Source: Erythrobacter sp.
GTDB lineage: Bacteria > Pseudomonadota > Alphaproteobacteria > Sphingomonadales > Sphingomonadaceae
Assembly (NCBI GenBank): GCA_027311945.1
Contig: DAICXZ010000022.1
Location: forward strand, 1 to 64,000
DNA: 64,000 bases
Direction: 5' to 3'
In this document: piece after piece, positions 3,979-64,000 of the stretch
Layout of the letters: every line of letters begins with the position of its first letter
Position numbering within the stretch: position 1 is the stretch's first letter
Translations under genes and position numbers: made by a program
Notes under the pieces: generated by a model
The model's database searches: none
The model's input: only the letters and a program-made list of their open reading frames with translations
Told to the model about the DNA's origin: nothing

Positions 3979-5208
3979 TTAACTTGCAGCCTGGCTCTTC
4001 TGCTGATCGGGCATCGGGCAGACAAGTCCGATCAGTGGCACGAACAGCATCGCACCGCCGGAGATCATCAGGGCCACGGCAACGCCTTGGGACTCGGCTA
4101 CATGCCCCCAAAACCAGCTTCCGAGCGCGATGCCGCCGAAGGTCAGGCTGCTGACCATCGCCACAACTCGGCCGACCGCCTCGAGAGGCGCCCACAGCTG
4201 GCCAGCGACCGAAAAACCGGAAAGCGCCTGAACCCAGCCCGCACCTGCGACCACGAGCAGGAATGTCATCGCGAAAAGACCCAGCTGAAGCGCCACGCCA
4301 ATGCAGCTCAGTCCGTATATAACGGCCGCCATGCGCACGAGCGTTTCCGCCTTGAACCGGTTGCGAAACCAGGTGCTTGTCGCTGCGCCGATCACGGCCC
4401 CCAGCCCCAGAGCCCCCAGCAAAATGCCGAACGTCGCGGAACCCTCGCCGAGAAGATCGCTCGCGACCAGAGGCATAAGTGCCCAGGCCGCCGCACCGGT
4501 GCAGGTGAACGTCACGGCACGCAACAATATGGTGCGGATTTCCGGAACCGCCCAGGCAATGCACAGACCATCGCCGATTGTGGCCCAGAACCCGGTGCGG
4601 GGTCTGGCGCTGGTGCCTTGCGGCTCTCCTCGCCAGCGCCACAACACTACTATAACCAAGAGGTAGCTCATGGCGTTGACGGTGAAGGCCGCTGAAGCCC
4701 CACCCAACGCGACAATGCCGCCGCCCAGCGCCGGACCGACACTGCGTGCGACATTGAACGCAAGGATGCTGAGCGCGACCGCAGCGGCAAGCTCCGCCTT
4801 CGAAACCGTGCTTCTCAGGGAAGCCGACAGTGCCGGGTTGAAACAAGCGACGCCGGCCGCGAGTACCGCCGTCAGCCCGATGATGGCGACGGGCGGCGCG
4901 GTGCCGGCCAATGCGAGGATCGCCAGCAATACCGACGCCGCAAACATGCCCGACTGGGCGGTGAGCATGATCATGCGGCGATCAAGCAGGTCTGCCCAGG
5001 CGCCTGCGGGCAACGCCAGCAGCATGATTGGAAGGTTGATGGCGGTCTGCACCAAGGCGACAATGTCAGCGGGCTGCCCACTTTCCGTCAGGTGCCAGGC
5101 TGCGCCGACGGACTGGATCGCATTCCCGAAATTCGACAACAGGCTTCCAGCCAGAATGAGGGCGAAAGCACGATGCCTCAGGGGCGCGAAAGTTGCTGTT
5201 GAATCCAT
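3979..5208 (-). CDS. MFS transporter, MFS_3 / EntS-like
   Basis: A 409-residue inner-membrane protein with about 12 hydrophobic segments. The opening FAPLRHRAFALILAGSLLSNFGN and the loop AGAWADLLDRRMIM are typical of the MFS_3 (EntS/YbdA-like) drug or siderophore exporter family. The start at 5208 is chosen from conservation. A GTG at 5274 would add 22 residues, and neither start has a good RBS. It lies upstream of, and convergent with, the frameshifted monooxygenase, and is a paralogue of the next gene on the same strand. Export of a small hydrophobic compound is inferred; the substrate is unknown. Confidence 0.85.
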   Translation of the reverse strand: MDSTATFAPLRHRAFALILAGSLLSNFGNAIQSVGAAWHLTESGQPADIVALVQTAINLPIMLLALPAGAWADLLDRRMIMLTAQSGMFAASVLLAILALAGTAPPVAIIGLTAVLAAGVACFNPALSASLRSTVSKAELAAAVALSILAFNVARSVGPALGGGIVALGGASAAFTVNAMSYLLVIVVLWRWRGEPQGTSARPRTGFWATIGDGLCIAWAVPEIRTILLRAVTFTCTGAAAWALMPLVASDLLGEGSATFGILLGALGLGAVIGAATSTWFRNRFKAETLVRMAAVIYGLSCIGVALQLGLFAMTFLLVVAGAGWVQALSGFSVAGQLWAPLEAVGRVVAMVSSLTFGGIALGSWFWGHVAESQGVAVALMISGGAMLFVPLIGLVCPMPDQQKSQAAS

Positions 5209-5376
5209 GAGGGGTGAATACCGTCGTTTCGCGAGAAAGTCCTCAAAACATGCGAACTGCCACGAATAGTTCACAGAACCGGGATAATGCTAGATGAGTG
5301 ATCGTCTTCGTGCCCCTGGAGCGGGAACCAGCGCTGCAAACTTGGCCTGTCCTGCAGTCAATTAGGTGCTGCTGAA

Positions 5377-7026
5377 TCAGCTCTGTCGTGCTGTGTCTGT
5401 CATAGGATCAGCCAGTTCCCGCGGAGACGTCTCGCGCGCGCCTGGAAGCGTGTTTGTTTGCCGTTCAATCAACCGGCGAACCATCGGCTTTTCAGGACCT
5501 ATATGCATGCTGAGGATGTCCGTCATATTCTGTGAATCCTCATTGGTTCGTCGCTGATTGTGTCGAATATAGTCCAGCCAAGTCGCGACATTGTAACGCT
5601 CAATCCATGTTTCGCTGTTCCCGAGATCACGCAGTAGGGTCCAGTGTCTCGCGCCGTCGCGCTTACGGATGCGCCGCCGTTCATCCATGACATTGAGGAA
5701 GCGCGGTATGTCCGTCGGGGCAATTCGATACTCGATTGTCACGACGATAGGTCCACTGCGCTCATCAACCGCGACCTCGGTCTCAGGCTCCGACCACTCG
5801 CGCAGCGCCAGGTCCAGATCGCGCGCGGACGCGAGGGGTAGAACGAAACCTGCCAGAAAGCTCAGCGCCAGAAAGCCTGTCGCTGTGAGCAACGAGATTT
5901 GCACGCCATAAGCATCCGCGATAATCCCGAACAGCCAAGCACCGACTGCTATTCCTCCAAATGCAGCCGTTTGATAAAGCGACAGTGCTCGTGCAACCAC
6001 CCATCGGGGTGCAGACAATTGCACTGATACATTGAAGGTCGACAAGGCCAACACCCATCCGGCCCCCGCCAAAGCGAGGGCCGGCACGGTCACGAGCACC
6101 GTCCTGCTCAATCCCGTTACCGCGCTTCCTGCCACCATGAAGGTAACCGCAATTCTTATGATCGTTTCAACCGTAATGCGACTACTCAGACGACGGACCA
6201 TGAGACCGCCACTGACCGCGCCGACACCGAATCCTCCCAGCAGCAGCCCGTAAGTGAGGGAATCGCCTGCAATGACTCCGCGCGCGATCAGTGGCATCAT
6301 CGCCGGGACCGCGCTCCCTCCAATACCAAACAGTAGGGACCGCGTAAGGACCGTGCGAATGTCAGGGGACATTGCGACGTAGTGCACACCCGCGACCATC
6401 GCGCGGCCGAGCGCCTCGCGAGGCAACAGCCGTTCGCTGCCAGGCGGTTTCCAGCGGAGGAGGATCGCGATCAATCCGACATAGCTGAGGGCGTTGACGA
6501 TAAAAGCAGCCGCGGCGCCTACCGCGGCGACAATAGCACCGCCAATCGCAGGACCAAAACTTCGCGCGATATTGAAGCCCATTGAATTCAACGCGACTGC
6601 GCTTGGCAGCGCCTCGCGAGGCACCATGTCGCCAACCGAAGCCTGCCATGCAGGACCATTTACCGCAGCGCCGCAGCCAAGCAGGAACGTGAAGCACAGC
6701 AGCAGCCATGGTGTAATCCAGCCGGCCAGAGTGACAGCTGCCAGCATCACCGAAACGACGAGCATGAAGCCCTGCGCCAAAAGCATTATCCGCTTGCGAT
6801 CATGATTGTCGGCCAGTGCCCCCGACCATAGTGCCAAGAGAAGGATGGGGAGTGCCGTGGACGTCTGGACCAATGCAACGATCTGCGGCGAGGCGGTGAG
6901 TGACGTCATCAGCCAGGAGGCACCGACGGCTTGAATTAGCCCGCCGAAGTTGGACACCAAACTGGCGCACCAGACAGCACGGAAGATGGGTATAGACAGC
7001 GGCGAGGTAGGGCGGGGTTCGACCAT
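5377..7026 (-). CDS. MFS transporter with C-terminal soluble extension (MFS_3)
   Basis: A 549-residue protein. Residues 1 to about 410 form an EntS-like MFS domain (SLVSNFGGLIQAVGASWLM; GALADNHDRKRIMLL). The last 130 or so residues form a cytoplasmic extension (VVTIEYRIAPTDIPRFLNVM ... ETWIERYNVATWLDYIRHNQ), the layout usual in longer MFS_3 proteins. ATG at 7026 is preferred to an upstream TTG at 7062. About 170 bases separate it from the preceding paralogue (3979-5208), so the two may be co-transcribed with this gene first. The start of a truncated PAP2 gene diverges from it. Confidence 0.85.
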   Translation of the reverse strand: MVEPRPTSPLSIPIFRAVWCASLVSNFGGLIQAVGASWLMTSLTASPQIVALVQTSTALPILLLALWSGALADNHDRKRIMLLAQGFMLVVSVMLAAVTLAGWITPWLLLCFTFLLGCGAAVNGPAWQASVGDMVPREALPSAVALNSMGFNIARSFGPAIGGAIVAAVGAAAAFIVNALSYVGLIAILLRWKPPGSERLLPREALGRAMVAGVHYVAMSPDIRTVLTRSLLFGIGGSAVPAMMPLIARGVIAGDSLTYGLLLGGFGVGAVSGGLMVRRLSSRITVETIIRIAVTFMVAGSAVTGLSRTVLVTVPALALAGAGWVLALSTFNVSVQLSAPRWVVARALSLYQTAAFGGIAVGAWLFGIIADAYGVQISLLTATGFLALSFLAGFVLPLASARDLDLALREWSEPETEVAVDERSGPIVVTIEYRIAPTDIPRFLNVMDERRRIRKRDGARHWTLLRDLGNSETWIERYNVATWLDYIRHNQRRTNEDSQNMTDILSMHIGPEKPMVRRLIERQTNTLPGARETSPRELADPMTDTARQS

Positions 7027-18717: not shown

Positions 18718-19248
18718 GTGCAGGATATGATGGCTCTTGTCGAACCGCTGATCCCCTCGCTGCGGCGCTATGCGCGCAGTCTGCTGCGCGATCAGAGTGC
18801 TGCCGACGATCTCGTGCAGGATTGCCTCGAGCGCGTAATCAGCCGTTGGCACCAGCGCCGGACTGATGGCAACACGCGCACGTGGGTCTTTACCATTCTG
18901 CATAATCTCGCGATCAACCGGCTCAAGCAGGCGGCCCGCCGCGGAGTCCATGTCACGGTGGAGGACGTCGATGAAGCCGCATTCGCGACCGCACCCGCTC
19001 AGGAGGACCGGTTGCATCATCGGGCGATCGTCGATGCGCTATCGTTATTACCCGAAGACCAACGCAGCGTGTTGCTACTCGTCTCGGTCGAGGACCTATC
19101 CTATGCAGAGACGGCGTCAGTGCTCGACATACCGATAGGAACGGTCATGTCCCGGCTTTCCCGCGCCCGTCATCGTCTGGCGCAGTCGATGGCCGATGGT
19201 CCGGGCCAAACCGCTACGGCGGCCACTGTACTGAGGAGCGTCAAATGA
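18718..19248 (+). CDS. ECF-type RNA polymerase sigma factor
   Basis: A 176-residue product. Sigma region 2 is at about residues 10-75 (RRYARSLLRDQSAADDLVQD, TRTWVFTILHNLAINRLKQA), and region 4 at 105-160 (ALSLLPEDQRSVLLLVSVED, YAETASVLDIPIGTVMSRLS). There is no long C-terminal extension. GTG at 18718 is chosen for its RBS GGAGAAGG; ATG at 18727 is possible. It overlaps the anti-sigma gene by ATGA. It likely reads the twin promoters at 16651-16759, inferred from context. Confidence 0.92.
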   Translation: MQDMMALVEPLIPSLRRYARSLLRDQSAADDLVQDCLERVISRWHQRRTDGNTRTWVFTILHNLAINRLKQAARRGVHVTVEDVDEAAFATAPAQEDRLHHRAIVDALSLLPEDQRSVLLLVSVEDLSYAETASVLDIPIGTVMSRLSRARHRLAQSMADGPGQTATAATVLRSVK

Positions 19249-20024
19249 GCCGTCCAATCTCAGAGGACGATCTTCACGCCTTCGTGGACGGAGCATTGTC
19301 CGACAGCCGCCGCGCGGAGGTGGAAGCCTATCTCGAAAGCAATCCCGAGGTGGCGGAGCGTTACGCGCAGTTCGGCGCACAACGCGAAGCCCTGCGTGCG
19401 GCACTCGGCCCCATTGCGGCCGAGCCGGTGCCGCCGAACCTCAATCTGCGCCATCTGGTGGCGACCCGCCGCCGACCGAACCGGTCCGCCTGGCAATCAG
19501 CCGCGGCAGCTTGCCTCCTTTTGCTGGCCGGTGGAGGCAGCGGGTGGATGCTTCGCGGAATCGGAATGGAGCAAACCACTGGCATTAACGCCCTCGCTCA
19601 CGAGGCGTCCTATGCCTATGCGGTATTTGGTTCGGATAGCGGCCGCCCCGTCGAGATCGCGGCGACGGACAGCGACGCGCTGTTGGGCTGGGTCGAAAAA
19701 CGCCTCTCTGAGCCAGTCTCTTTGCCGGACCTTTCCGGGGCCGGTTACCAGTTCATCGGCGGTCGTGTCGTTGCTACCCAGAATGGCCCGGCGGGCCTGC
19801 TGATGTACGATGACGCGGAGGGCACACGCATCGCCATTCTGATGCGGCCGATGGTGCGGCGCGACGAGAATGCCCCCATGGCCCAACATCGCGAAGGCGA
19901 TGTGGTCGGCTATGCCTGGGCAGACGACGGTATGGGCTACAGTCTTGTCGGCGGTCTCGACGTCGCCGAAGCGCTGCATCCGATCGCCGATGAAGCACGC
20001 CGGCAACTTTTGGCGAGTACATGA
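19245..20024 (+). CDS. Membrane anti-sigma factor
   Basis: A 259-residue product. The N-terminal anti-sigma helices (EDDLHAFVDGALSDSRRAEV, residues 7-26) lack the Cys of zinc-binding ZAS domains. One membrane segment lies at about 83-103. The periplasmic part (160-255) reads LPDLSGAGYQFIGGRVVATQ and VVGYAWADDGMGYSLVGGLD. It should hold the co-encoded ECF factor inactive until a periplasmic signal arrives. The same periplasmic domain recurs in the sulfotransferase fusion at 61617-63089. Confidence 0.88.
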   Translation: MSRPISEDDLHAFVDGALSDSRRAEVEAYLESNPEVAERYAQFGAQREALRAALGPIAAEPVPPNLNLRHLVATRRRPNRSAWQSAAAACLLLLAGGGSGWMLRGIGMEQTTGINALAHEASYAYAVFGSDSGRPVEIAATDSDALLGWVEKRLSEPVSLPDLSGAGYQFIGGRVVATQNGPAGLLMYDDAEGTRIAILMRPMVRRDENAPMAQHREGDVVGYAWADDGMGYSLVGGLDVAEALHPIADEARRQLLAST

Positions 20025-59472: not shown

Positions 59473-60684
59473 TCAGTCGCCGCGAGCAGGCCTTGGCCCG
59501 GTGCCGGGGTCGTGGTCGAAAGGCTGGGCGAAGCGGCTGCGGTCATCGTTTTCGGCGGTGACAGCCTCTTCCTCGCCTGCTGCAATGCGGGCCTGCTGGG
59601 CACGGCTCGCGCTGATGTAGTCGCGCGGCATGTAGTTGCCCTCGTGACAGGCATATTCGAAGAACTGGTAGTCCTCGTCGCGACTCCACGAGAGGCGAGT
59701 GGTCCATGGCTGGGTGTACACCTCGGGGTCTGAGTAGGTCAGTTCGTGGACGATCTCGTCGGGCCCGACCATGGTCAGCCGCTCGACCGTCATCGCTTGG
59801 TCGCTCATCGGCACGGTGTTGAAAGCGGGCACGGTGGTGGTGCCGGTAAACTGCGTCGCCATGTTGAGCGGGCTGGCCGAGCGTTCATAGGAATCGCGCG
59901 TGGCGCTGTCGCCCGAGACGATGTTGGTGGTCTCGATCACCAGCGTCCTGCCTTCCCACCAGCCGCGCGAATTGCCCATCCACGCCTCGACAGGCTTGTC
60001 CCACCGTGCCGCCTGCGCCGCTTCCTTGCTGTCGTAGATCTTCACCACCCGTGTGCCGAGCATCTCCAGCACGATGGTCATCACGCCGGGGCTCTGGAAG
60101 ATGCGGATGCCGTTGTTGTAGCGGAACGGGTACATCGAAGCCGGAAACCCGCGCGAAACGCAGCGGTCCCAGCTGTCGAAGTCGCTCACCCAGTCGTAGC
60201 CCTGACCCGGCACCCAGCCAGAGCGGCCTTCCTTGAACAGCGCCATCGCCTGCGGAGTGAGCGCGGGCAGCTGGCCATCGGCGGGGCTGACCAGCATCGC
60301 GGTGCGCTTGCCGAAGCTGGTCGACTGGAACCACGCTTCCAGCCCCTCTGTGCCCGCAGTGCCGATGCCGGTTTCGGTCGCCTCGGCGAAGTTGCCGTCG
60401 TTCCCGCGCGCGGCGGCGAGGCGGCGTTCGAACTCCTCGTCGTTCACCCACTGGCGCATCCCGTAGGCGGCGGGGCGCTGGAACAGGATATAGCCAGTGT
60501 TGATATTCTCAATCGGCCAGGTGCCGGTGAAATCATAGTCGCCCCATGATGTCTTCGCCGGTTCGTAGTCGGTGGGGACGGCCGGCAGCTCGGTGAGGTC
60601 GGCGGGCCGCTCCTGCGCCGCGGCGGGAACGGTGAGCGCAAGTGCGGACGCGGCACACAGGACGGCGGCAAGGCGGCTGATCAT
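59473..60684 (-). CDS. Exported protein of unknown function
   Basis: A 403-residue product with signal peptide MISRLAAVLCAASALALTVP. No known domain. The mature part has GDYDFTGTWPIENINTGYIL and repeated WxxG/aromatic-rich segments (DSWDRCVSRGFPASMYPFRY, NSRGWWEGRTLVIETTNIVS). GDxxFTGTW and WWEGRTLVIETTN are also seen in many sphingomonad and caulobacter exported proteins of undefined role. RBS GGGGAGAG precedes the ATG. Confidence 0.8.
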   Translation of the reverse strand: MISRLAAVLCAASALALTVPAAAQERPADLTELPAVPTDYEPAKTSWGDYDFTGTWPIENINTGYILFQRPAAYGMRQWVNDEEFERRLAAARGNDGNFAEATETGIGTAGTEGLEAWFQSTSFGKRTAMLVSPADGQLPALTPQAMALFKEGRSGWVPGQGYDWVSDFDSWDRCVSRGFPASMYPFRYNNGIRIFQSPGVMTIVLEMLGTRVVKIYDSKEAAQAARWDKPVEAWMGNSRGWWEGRTLVIETTNIVSGDSATRDSYERSASPLNMATQFTGTTTVPAFNTVPMSDQAMTVERLTMVGPDEIVHELTYSDPEVYTQPWTTRLSWSRDEDYQFFEYACHEGNYMPRDYISASRAQQARIAAGEEEAVTAENDDRSRFAQPFDHDPGTGPRPARGD

Positions 60685-60855
60685 TCGATACTCTCCCCAG
60701 AGGCTTGCCGGCTGTTGCGCCAGGCACAAATTGATTTTGTCCATTTCTAGTGGCGTTTGTCCGGCGCGGCAATGTTTGTTTCGCCTTAGGCGTCGGGCAG
60801 CGAGTTGCGCTCTGCTGCGGTCGGCCTTGCGGTCGCCCGAGACGACCGGTGTTTC

Positions 60856-61539
60856 TCACTCGGCATCCTTGCGAGCCTCAGCTTCCGTGGCGCGCAGCGC
60901 ATCGACCTCGGCGGCGATCAGGTCGACCAGCGCGCCGCGGTTTCGCTCGGCCTGTTGCATGAGGTCGGTCAGCACCTCGGCGCGGATGCGTTCGTAGACC
61001 GCGTTGCCGGGGCGCAGGTGCGCGGAGTATTTCTCCGGCCGCCGGTTCTTCAGGAAAAACATCACGAGGTTCTCGTTATGCTTCGCACCGTGGACGACGA
61101 TGTCGCCATTGGCGAGCACATGCTCGTGTGGCACGCCCTTGATCGCACGCTCCATGGCGGCAGCCTCGATCCGGTCGACCCCGCGATCGACGGCGGCTTC
61201 CCAGGCGGCGGCAAAGCCTTCGGCGCCGGGCTGCTGGCGCAGCTTGTAAAGCGCCTCGAGCGAGACCCCGATATGCATGGCCGCGCGGGCGACGATCCCG
61301 GTGGCGGCGAGCATGGCGATGAAGTCGCGCTGTTTTTCGGGTGTGATTGAGTTCCGGCGCGGCTGCTTGTGAAGATAGGGCACAAAGTCGAGCAGCGGAT
61401 CGTCCGGCGCGGGGAGCGGGCCGGGGGCGGTCATATAGCTGGTGCCCTGACGCGGCGTAGCCCGCTGGTGGCCGTTGGGCGCGGGAGCGTCAGGGGCAAA
61501 CGGCTGCGAGCGAGCGGGCTTTTTCGGAGACTCGGACAT
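60856..61539 (-). CDS. Terminase-small-subunit-like HTH protein
   Basis: A 227-residue protein. After a 65-residue disordered, Pro-rich start comes NSITPEKQRDFIAMLAATGI and ARAAMHIGVSLEALYKLRQQ, a helix-turn-helix of the type used by phage terminase small subunits, then a helical part (EAAMERAIKGVPHEHVLANG). No other phage genes lie nearby. Its 5' end and upstream sequence are duplicated at 63411-63640. It is 77 bases from the sulfotransferase gene on the same strand. Confidence 0.65.
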   Translation of the reverse strand: MSESPKKPARSQPFAPDAPAPNGHQRATPRQGTSYMTAPGPLPAPDDPLLDFVPYLHKQPRRNSITPEKQRDFIAMLAATGIVARAAMHIGVSLEALYKLRQQPGAEGFAAAWEAAVDRGVDRIEAAAMERAIKGVPHEHVLANGDIVVHGAKHNENLVMFFLKNRRPEKYSAHLRPGNAVYERIRAEVLTDLMQQAERNRGALVDLIAAEVDALRATEAEARKDAE

Positions 61540-61616
61540 CTGCCAGTGTGGAGCAGATGTGGCGGAGTGTAGGAAAGGCCTGTTTCAAACAATCAGCTTC
61601 GGGCCACTCATCGCAG

Positions 61617-63089
61617 TCAGGAATTGTCCGCCAGGTTCTCGGCGAGTTCCTGCAACCTTGGCGCGTCCACTTCGCCAACCAGTGCAAGGGCAACCGAGCC
61701 CTCTTCCCAGTACGCCACCGTCATGCCGTGGTTCACTTCGGTGGCAGGGAGTTCGCTGATCGAGGTTTCCTCCTCCGCAGCGAAGAGCGATATCTGTTCG
61801 TCTTCTTCCGTCACCACGCTCATCACCACCGAGGTGCCGAGATCGGACGGATAGAGCTGGGTATCGGTCACGGTCCACTCCCCAGGGAGTTCGGGAAGCA
61901 CGACCCCCGTGGCATCGAGAATCTCCTGGCGGTCGACGGCGCCGTTCTGAACTTGCGATGCCATTTTGGCGCGTGCCTTGCTTGCTTCGTAAGCTTCCTG
62001 CGCTTCATCAACCAGAGACGATGCGCTGGCAGGATGGGAAACGCCGATTTCAGCCTCATTCGCGATCCAGCCCGAAGCGAATACCGCAAGGATAGCGGCA
62101 GCCTTGGCCCACCGATTGCGCGAGCGGTTGTCGTTCGCGGCAGAGGTTGCCTGCACCCTGGCCGGTTCAGCAGCCGCTTGCTCGCTCGCGGATTGAGCCG
62201 ACCAGTTCTCGCTGTAATAACGGGCAAAAAACGGGTCGAGATTGCGGTCGATGTAGTCGTCGACAAAGGCGATGTCTTCCGCCGTCAGATAATCGACGTA
62301 GCCACCGACCTTTCCGCGGCGAACCTTGAAGCTTTCCGGATTGTTCGGATCGGCAGGGCGAAGGCGCTCGTGCTTGAAGCTGTCCTGCAACTCAGCCTTG
62401 CGCATGTTGCGGAACGAGCCCTTTTCGACAATCTCATCGACCAGTTCGGCGCTCGGATCGGGCAGGCCGAAGAACTTGGCAGAATCCCGGATCACCTTTC
62501 GCGGATCGCTCTGCATATCCTCGTAGGTGATCCAGAGAAAGTCGCGCGGCACGGACCGCGCCTGCGCCCAGGCGTTGTAAAACGCCACGATGGCATCGAT
62601 GCTGCCCTTCTCACAACGCAGATAGGTCGAGATGTCGCAATCGATCACCTTCATCCTGTTCTTGGCGTCAAAGTAGTAGGAAACCAGAACGTCGCGAGGG
62701 TCGCGGGTGAGCAGCAGCACCTTCTTTCTGCGATAGAACGACTTGTTCCACTCGACATCGCGCCCGAACTTCAGATTGGGATAATCATCGTGCGTAAACC
62801 CGATGTTCGGGATGCCGGGCGAGAGCTTCCAGAAATGCTGAAGCTCCATGGGATTATCGACCTTGAGGCCGAACTGCGCACAGGCCATGCTCCCGAACAT
62901 GGTGCGAAACCATGTCCGACCGGACTTGGGATAGGAGAGGACATAGCCATCCCTCGCCCAGGCGCTCGCCGAACGGCGCATTGCCAGCAATATGCCCTTG
63001 TTCTTGATCGAGCGCGGCAGCAACACCTCACCTGCGGAAAAGGCGAAGTCCCGGAACATCGTGCGTAATGTCATCTGACTGATTCCCAA
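61617..63089 (-). CDS. Sulfotransferase fused to a membrane anti-sigma-like sensor domain
   Basis: A continuous 490-residue frame. Residues 45-290 form a PAPS-dependent sulfotransferase: PSB loop SYPKSGRTWFRTM (52-64), 3'-phosphate loop LTRDPRDVLVSYY (127-139) and the C-terminal RRGKVGGYVDYLT (257-269). A linker (295-325) leads to one membrane helix (RWAKAAAILAVFASGWIANE, 327-346). Residues 398-487 (VLPELPGEWTVTDTQL; VAYWEEGSVALALVGEVDA) resemble the periplasmic domain of the anti-sigma factor at 19245-20024. The sulfotransferase would stay cytoplasmic and the sensor periplasmic. The carbohydrate, lipid or peptide acceptor is unknown. I have not seen this arrangement described. Confidence 0.85.
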   Translation of the reverse strand: MGISQMTLRTMFRDFAFSAGEVLLPRSIKNKGILLAMRRSASAWARDGYVLSYPKSGRTWFRTMFGSMACAQFGLKVDNPMELQHFWKLSPGIPNIGFTHDDYPNLKFGRDVEWNKSFYRRKKVLLLTRDPRDVLVSYYFDAKNRMKVIDCDISTYLRCEKGSIDAIVAFYNAWAQARSVPRDFLWITYEDMQSDPRKVIRDSAKFFGLPDPSAELVDEIVEKGSFRNMRKAELQDSFKHERLRPADPNNPESFKVRRGKVGGYVDYLTAEDIAFVDDYIDRNLDPFFARYYSENWSAQSASEQAAAEPARVQATSAANDNRSRNRWAKAAAILAVFASGWIANEAEIGVSHPASASSLVDEAQEAYEASKARAKMASQVQNGAVDRQEILDATGVVLPELPGEWTVTDTQLYPSDLGTSVVMSVVTEEDEQISLFAAEEETSISELPATEVNHGMTVAYWEEGSVALALVGEVDAPRLQELAENLADNS

Positions 63090-63410: not shown

Positions 63411-63602
63411 CATTCCGGGCGTGATCGAGTTTCGGCGCGGTCGCTGGTGGGGCTCGCGAGCACAGGCGAACTGCGGATCGTCCGCGGCGGGCGGCGAGCC
63501 GGGCGCGGTCATATAGCTTGTGCGCTGACGCGCTGGTGGGCGCGGGGGGGTGTCAGTAATGGGTCGCTGTGGGCGAGCGGGCTTATTCGGGGACTCGGAC
63601 AT
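63411..63602 (-). pseudogene. Degraded duplicate of the terminase-like gene 5' end
   Basis: From the ATG at 63602 the frame reads MSESPNKPARPQ, RQRTSYMTAPG, DDP and RPRRNSITPGM, matching the first 70 residues of the protein at 60856-61539 with small deletions. The 40 or so bases upstream, including ATCTGCCAGTGTGGAGCAGA, are also the same in both places. Similarity ends around 63411 and the frame then drifts to a stop at 63279. It is a broken copy on the other side of the sulfotransferase gene. Confidence 0.8.
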
Positions 63603-63745
63603 CTGCCAGTGTGGAGCAGATTTGGGGGTTTGTAGGAAAGGGGCTTTCTCTGCTGCTAACTGCCACCTTCCCCCTGTCGTAACAAGTTGACGCGAGGATT
63701 CACCTTGAGTTAGGCGGAAAAGTGGCACGCAAAAAACAATTGTAG

Positions 63746-64000
63746 TTAGCTCGCGGAAGTCGTTGTAAAACGGCCGTATAGCTCTTCGCAGAGCGAAGTT
63801 ATAATTCGTTGAGTGCCATTGACTATACTGGCAAGCCAGCCGATCTTCCGCATGGCCCAATCGAACCAGAAGCTCAGCGCGATAATTGCGATCATCAAAG
63901 CGGTCGCAAGACCTAGTGCCGAACCACTGCTCTGGGGCTTGATCACAACACAATACAGCAGAATATTGCCAAAGGCGAAGGTAAAGAGGCTTGTGCGCCC
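63746..64000 (-). CDS. Membrane protein, partial (5' end beyond window)
   Basis: The minus-strand frame is open from the right edge to the stop at 63746, 84 codons. It has two membrane helices (SLFTFAFGNILLYCVVIKPQ; ALGLATALMIAIIALSFWFD) and a cytoplasmic or periplasmic tail (IVNGTQRIITSLCEELYGRF). A GTG at 63946 is an internal candidate start, but coding-like sequence continues upstream. No family recognised. Confidence 0.5.
   Translation of the reverse strand, partial: GRTSLFTFAFGNILLYCVVIKPQSSGSALGLATALMIAIIALSFWFDWAMRKIGWLASIVNGTQRIITSLCEELYGRFTTTSAS

Follow-up and report, generated by a model that had tools for sequence, protein, structure and literature searches.

A predicted sulfotransferase joined to an anti-sigma-type periplasmic domain in Erythrobacter and its relatives

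In anti-sigma factors, a module made of a membrane helix and a periplasmic domain links the state of the periplasm to the release of a sigma factor, and sensors of this type are treated as inputs to transcription. The systems closest to the gene studied here are pairs of an ECF sigma factor and a membrane anti-sigma factor, one of which lies in the same stretch of DNA (18718-20024) and others at the loci we refer to as L008-L018 and L137-L149. They share with our gene a membrane helix and a homologous periplasmic domain, but carry a cytoplasmic sigma-binding domain where our gene encodes a sulfotransferase, beside which no ECF gene was found. On the enzyme side, the comparison is with soluble Sulfotransfer_1 enzymes (the SULT family and stand-alone proteins in genomes G102, G164 and G280), which have the same catalytic domain with its cofactor segments. 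Two further systems bear on the periplasmic side. RsiV and RsiP of Bacillus, according to one account, receive their site-1 cut from signal peptidases and then undergo intramembrane proteolysis, the usual signal-peptidase site being A-x-A and that of RsiP V-Q-S (PMC8844934); like our gene product, they have a signal-peptidase-type motif just outside the membrane. RseB and MucB, as another account describes them, are proteins in their own right and bind RseA and MucA at the periplasmic part of each (PMC7400510). An enzyme-fused anti-sigma sensor like the one reported below is not described in the titles and abstract openings among the matches listed for anti-sigma fusions, Sphingomonadales or Erythrobacter sulfotransferases and COG5662, a search with most subscription journals outside its scope.

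The gene lies in what we call the window, the whole stretch of 64,000 nucleotides of Erythrobacter sp. DNA that was analysed (contig DAICXZ010000022.1 of assembly GCA_027311945.1); its features, together with those of the comparison pair, are collected in Table 1. An earlier, sequence-only reading had proposed that one frame joins a sulfotransferase, a membrane helix and a periplasmic domain, and this is borne out by the profile match and the modelled helix described below and by three full-length relatives. Of the two candidate start codons, the ATG is the likelier real start, giving the shorter protein, because the position of Met6 is the first residue of the orthologues L021 and L022 and a stand-alone relative in L086 opens with a similar-looking stretch.

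Table 1. Positions in the window of the fusion gene, its parts and the sigma/anti-sigma pair used for comparison
Feature	Coordinates	Strand	Basis or remark
Whole fusion gene	61617..63089	minus	490 codons open from TTG 63089; 485 aa from ATG 63074
Predicted PAPS sulfotransferase domain, residues 49-285 (PF00685)	62235..62945	minus	Profile match and YPKSGRTW, RDPRDVLVSYY and RRGKVGGY segments
Membrane helix, about residues 323-343	62061..62123	minus	Helix in structure model
A354-S355-A356, signal-peptidase-like [AV]-x-A motif in the juxtamembrane periplasmic stretch	62022..62030	minus	Conserved in 30/30 rows
Periplasmic anti-sigma-type domain, residues 356-490 (~135 residues)	61620..62024	minus	Profiles and model
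ECF sigma factor of comparison pair	18718..19248	plus	Overlaps start of the anti-sigma gene
Anti-sigma factor with related C-terminal domain	19245..20024	plus	Profile match 19716-19985

The enzyme half matches PF00685 (Sulfotransfer_1) with 91.9 bits, above the curated cut-off of 22. Its three signature segments, which we take to be the PAPS-binding cofactor loops, align with solved SULT sequences and are largely invariant in the four orthologues, and an APS kinase, for PAPS, is encoded in the window's genome; the predicted activity is that of a PAPS sulfotransferase. That this enzyme stands in for the usual anti-sigma N-terminus, as had been supposed, agrees with the family searches, in which no anti-sigma N-terminal family (zf-HC2-like or other) in Pfam or NCBIfam matched the whole fusion at E values up to 1. 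A linker of about 35 residues leads from the sulfotransferase domain to the membrane helix, which is weakly hydrophobic; the best hydropathy window spans residues 332-350, with a charge of +3 before it and -3 after it. The protein would be oriented with its enzyme in the cytoplasm and its C-terminal domain in the periplasm.

The periplasmic domain is modelled as a long helix, a short helix, six strands and a C-terminal helix. Its likeness to the window's anti-sigma factor is not seen by pairwise BLASTP (E 6.7) and comes out with profiles. A 20-row domain profile run against the whole genome at E values up to 10 found two places only, namely the fusion (E 6.6e-63) and the C-terminal part of the anti-sigma gene (E 3e-4). 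In hhalign, a profile built from seven enzyme fusions gave an alignment of 156 columns with the anti-sigma protein (E 2.5e-5, probability 75%) and an E of 5.5e-4 with the part of that protein after residue 105 alone, scores that none of 150 background proteins matched in either case. The fusion's domain is 29-37% identical to the eleven anti-sigma members of alignment A2, and a conserved core is common to enzyme fusions and anti-sigma factors. The C-terminal domain of the fusion thus belongs to the anti-sigma periplasmic family, as the first inspection had suggested. General databases return little for it: no Pfam or NCBIfam family exceeded its cut-off for the periplasmic part, PDB sequence profiles gave no match up to E 10, and the C-terminal fragment alone met the NCBIfam antisigma model at E 0.12. 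DUF4245 matched weakly in 9 of 20 domain members (best E 2.7e-4), the window's member scoring 15.7 bits against a cut-off of 30.1. The comparison protein itself is called an anti-sigma factor because of weak family matches, all below cut-offs (zf-HC2 E 0.0038; NCBIfam PRK13920 E 5e-9), and because the ECF sigma gene overlaps the start of its gene.

Both fold searches with the modelled domain placed RseB/MucB, periplasmic proteins that regulate ECF anti-sigma factors, at the top, and the model, built on an alignment of four related sequences, appears to fit the MucB_RseB_C fold of a six-stranded sheet with a C-terminal helix. The likeness is one of fold only, a relation by sequence having been rejected as non-significant against background. 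For instance, the PF17188 model searched against the genome at E values up to 10 gave a single chance-like match elsewhere (E 2.65) and none to the fusion, and hhalign of the domain against E. coli RseB gave E 0.05, within background: the RseB score of 17.8 with alignment A5 was reached by 8 of 120 background proteins and that of 18.9 with alignment A2 by 13 of 120, four being domain carriers each time. The RseB/MucB C-terminal domain (PF17188) is found on a separate protein, whereas in the fusion the similar fold would sit on the membrane protein itself. If the fold likeness is right, it offers a first structural idea for this domain, and a function that is separate in E. coli and Pseudomonas may here be built into the anti-sigma protein.

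A search for the architecture in other genomes, scanning one genome per species, found the whole fusion at 67-69% identity in Qipengyuania pacifica, Q. qiaonensis and Aurantiacibacter rhizosphaerae (L021-L023; G404 and G510, taken as the same species as L022 and L023, were counted once). Across the comparisons, dN/dS was 0.03-0.09 for the enzyme half and 0.06-0.19 for the periplasmic domain, values quoted for these two domains only, the short linker and helix having given no dS in several comparisons. Between the two Qipengyuania genes (L021 and L023) the figures are 0.064 and 0.060, and the linker is only 50% identical. A lost stop codon or an assembly fusion is therefore ruled out, given the intact fusion in three other species and the purifying selection on both halves; nor were relatives seen with the two parts in separate adjacent genes, and the three close stand-alone sulfotransferases are without the domain. 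In the window's genus, the fusion is present in 2 of 40 genomes (the window's own and one apparently of A. rhizosphaerae); another 8 of these 40 carry the domain on a Methyltransf_24 enzyme, and no genome among them has both.

Comparison of the called neighbours of the window's gene, L021, L022 and L023 found no common operon for the sulfotransferase fusions, the sole cross-match being a weak aminotransferase-like pair in L021 and L023 (29% identity, on different sides). The neighbours of Methyltransf_24 fusions are kept within a genus, not between genera. On either side of the window's gene, at 61335-61578 and 63413-63641, lie the two copies of a direct repeat; they are about 245 bp long and, with gaps, 75% identical. 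The upstream copy resembles a decayed 5' end of the 60856-61539 gene, and the repeat may be a trace of the cassette's arrival. The 60856-61539 gene and another at 59473-60744, both coding-looking, on the minus strand and downstream of the fusion, have no Pfam match at E 0.01.

Across 397 genomes of the bacterial family, the domain profile found 61 places in 52 genomes. Their N-termini were assigned by short sequence patterns, backed for many of the sequences, though not for all, by a full reading. They are anti-sigma in 32 cases, of which 11 were missed by the pattern and relabelled (L008, L018, L088 and L092 after full reading, the other seven by their likeness to L008 and the 50 residues that precede the domain). 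Enzymes account for 20 Methyltransf_24 fusions (including L085, counted here while ending at a contig edge), 3 FkbM methyltransferases and the window's sulfotransferase; the rest are 3 copies of an unclassified protein of about 400 residues, 1 unclear case and 1 fragment, and the Methyltransf_24, FkbM and unclassified families were each tested on one representative. The copy at L079:5936-6919 (G156) has no recognisable N-terminus and was left out of the fusion count; it and the fragment L095 (G363) are possibly decaying genes. Anti-sigma factor and enzyme fusion occur together in 4 of the 52 genomes. The domain was also found in 16 of 296 genomes at the level of the order, one of them outside the family, and in 65 of 385 at the level of the class. 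Outside the family, all 23 places read, which were picked as best-scoring or for long open frames, look like anti-sigma factors, each with a sigma-factor match in its locus.

The idea that the sensor usually sits behind an anti-sigma N-terminus is therefore upheld by these counts, in which anti-sigma is the commonest partner, and by the genes around it. A sigma-factor match was present in 31 of the 32 anti-sigma loci (26 on the same strand and within 1.5 kb upstream) and in none of 36 enzyme-fusion loci, including all four sulfotransferase fusions, over an extent of at least 7 kb in 17 of the 36 and some 3.5-4.5 kb in the others. Among 13 anti-sigma loci with longer flanks (L137-L149), 7 have as the next gene a member of one GMC oxidoreductase-like cluster, of which three were scanned, and 3 a member of one 2OG-Fe(II) oxygenase-like cluster, of which one was scanned; in 2 loci a glycosyltransferase lies beside the sigma/anti-sigma pair. 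As to the partner of about 400 residues (L077:5696-7423, L078, L062), one representative had no supported Pfam, NCBIfam or PDB match; a CDPG-like resemblance was dropped, as no family model supports it. At L081, an FkbM-methyltransferase fusion and a separate sulfotransferase gene (PF13469, E 2.7e-14) adjoin one another (4145-5005 and 5196-6509).

In the domain tree, from which L095, L120 and L024 are left out, the sulfotransferase sensors nest within those of Methyltransf_24 (98/95), and sensors from FkbM fusions fall among anti-sigma sensors. In AU tests, trees that kept Methyltransf_24 together as one clade without the sulfotransferase sensors (p 0.227), or that derived every enzyme fusion from one origin (p 0.101), were not rejected. 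However many times the domain was captured, it is found with four different N-terminal partners besides anti-sigma, and the presence of the module on a Methyltransf_24 enzyme, an FkbM methyltransferase and the unclassified protein argues that it has been re-used. A tree of the sulfotransferase part, disturbed by two long outgroup rows, did not separate fused and stand-alone sets with full support.

Our best reading is that an anti-sigma sensor module has been re-used as the sulfotransferase's membrane anchor and likely input. Stated in full, with a probability that we put at roughly 0.5, the periplasmic domain controls a membrane-anchored, cytoplasm-facing envelope-glycan sulfotransferase, so that a periplasmic signal would control sulfation. 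The enzyme would face the cytoplasm, where PAPS is made, while being held at the membrane, and the periplasmic domain would report the state of the envelope. The output of the sulfotransferase and methyltransferase fusions would be the enzyme itself, not a sigma factor, which would make these fusions a short cut with sensor and enzyme in one chain. The state of the RseB-like domain may decide how the enzyme sits at the membrane and so change its place or activity, either through altered conformation or partners, or through a cut at the A-x-A motif, after which intramembrane proteolysis would free or destroy the enzyme.

It is possible, if somewhat doubtful, that the module is a tether only, anchoring the enzyme or docking it on an envelope-assembly partner and sensing nothing any more. 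The enzyme partners do vary in kind while anchor and domain stay constant, and the lack of sigma-factor matches in the enzyme-fusion loci suits this view too. However, a bare helix would be enough for anchoring, yet the whole domain is kept under the selection described above, along with the core that it has in common with anti-sigma factors.

The clipping route draws on the stretch between helix and domain. In all 30 sulfotransferase and Methyltransf_24 fusions this stretch has A (28) or V (2) in the first place of the motif and A (30) in the last, and all 30 have a Gly-Trp near the end of the helix. In the window's protein the motif comes about 13 residues after the Gly-Trp, within a stretch rich in alanine. 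The six other fusions show it less regularly, and a similar motif occurs in some anti-sigma relatives and not in others. By analogy with RsiV and RsiP, such a motif would allow clipping by signal peptidase, which is suggestive only. The same regularity could mean that ordinary signal peptidase always cuts here, leaving a membrane-bound enzyme and a free, independently working periplasmic protein. We regard this as unlikely, as the motif lies some way past the hydrophobic core and the 61 places in 397 genomes include no clear stand-alone periplasmic form (beyond L079, without a recognised N-terminus, and one fragment).

As regards the substrate, a search of the 397 family genomes with the sulfotransferase part gave relatives at E 1e-30 or better in 6, the window's own included. 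Three of them (G102, G164, G280) are stand-alone proteins, 63-68% identical to the sulfotransferase part, that end before the membrane helix. Those in G102 and G164 have AT3, AT3-SGNH, DegT and PF02719 nucleotide-sugar genes around them, to which G164 adds a Wzz-type gene; that in G280 adjoins an AT3-SGNH acyltransferase gene, and a DegT gene is close by. Upstream of the window's fusion, on the minus strand, an OpgC-like acyltransferase gene (PF10129, E 4e-10) covers 63746-64000 and continues to 64957 in the contig. Given this polysaccharide-gene neighbourhood and the OpgC-like gene, an envelope polysaccharide or glycolipid precursor is the most likely substrate by gene association; in L021-L023, the nine neighbours of the fused genes that were scanned lent a glycan no further support. 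A membrane carotenoid, to which the anchor would bring the enzyme, is an improbable substitute: sulfated carotenoids, and an extract activity suggesting a sulfotransferase, are reported for Erythrobacter flavus (PMC6627997), but the stand-alone relatives adjoin acyltransferase and polysaccharide genes, and of 40 genomes in the window's genus 2 have the gene. Finally, that the protein is still an anti-sigma factor with its sulfotransferase part serving as a sigma-binding decoy is very hard to credit, for its C-terminus is homologous to anti-sigma factors but no enzyme-fusion locus has a sigma match, the cofactor loops are present and the enzyme half is strongly constrained.

The sharing of one sensor by a sulfotransferase and methyltransferases marks it as a portable module, which may provide a fast, post-translational route from the state of the envelope to its chemistry. 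Furthermore, the differing enzyme contexts offer a comparison from which the signal of the anti-sigma domain might be worked out. Tentatively, and with less assurance than for the window's gene, we suggest that this bacterial family has its own kind of one-protein signalling, in which an RseB-like sensor and helix from ECF anti-sigma factors are placed on at least four protein families, most or all of them envelope enzymes, and, through conformation or regulated clipping, control them directly without passing through transcription. Overall, the fusions hint at a route, little noticed so far, by which external signals would act on enzymes directly.
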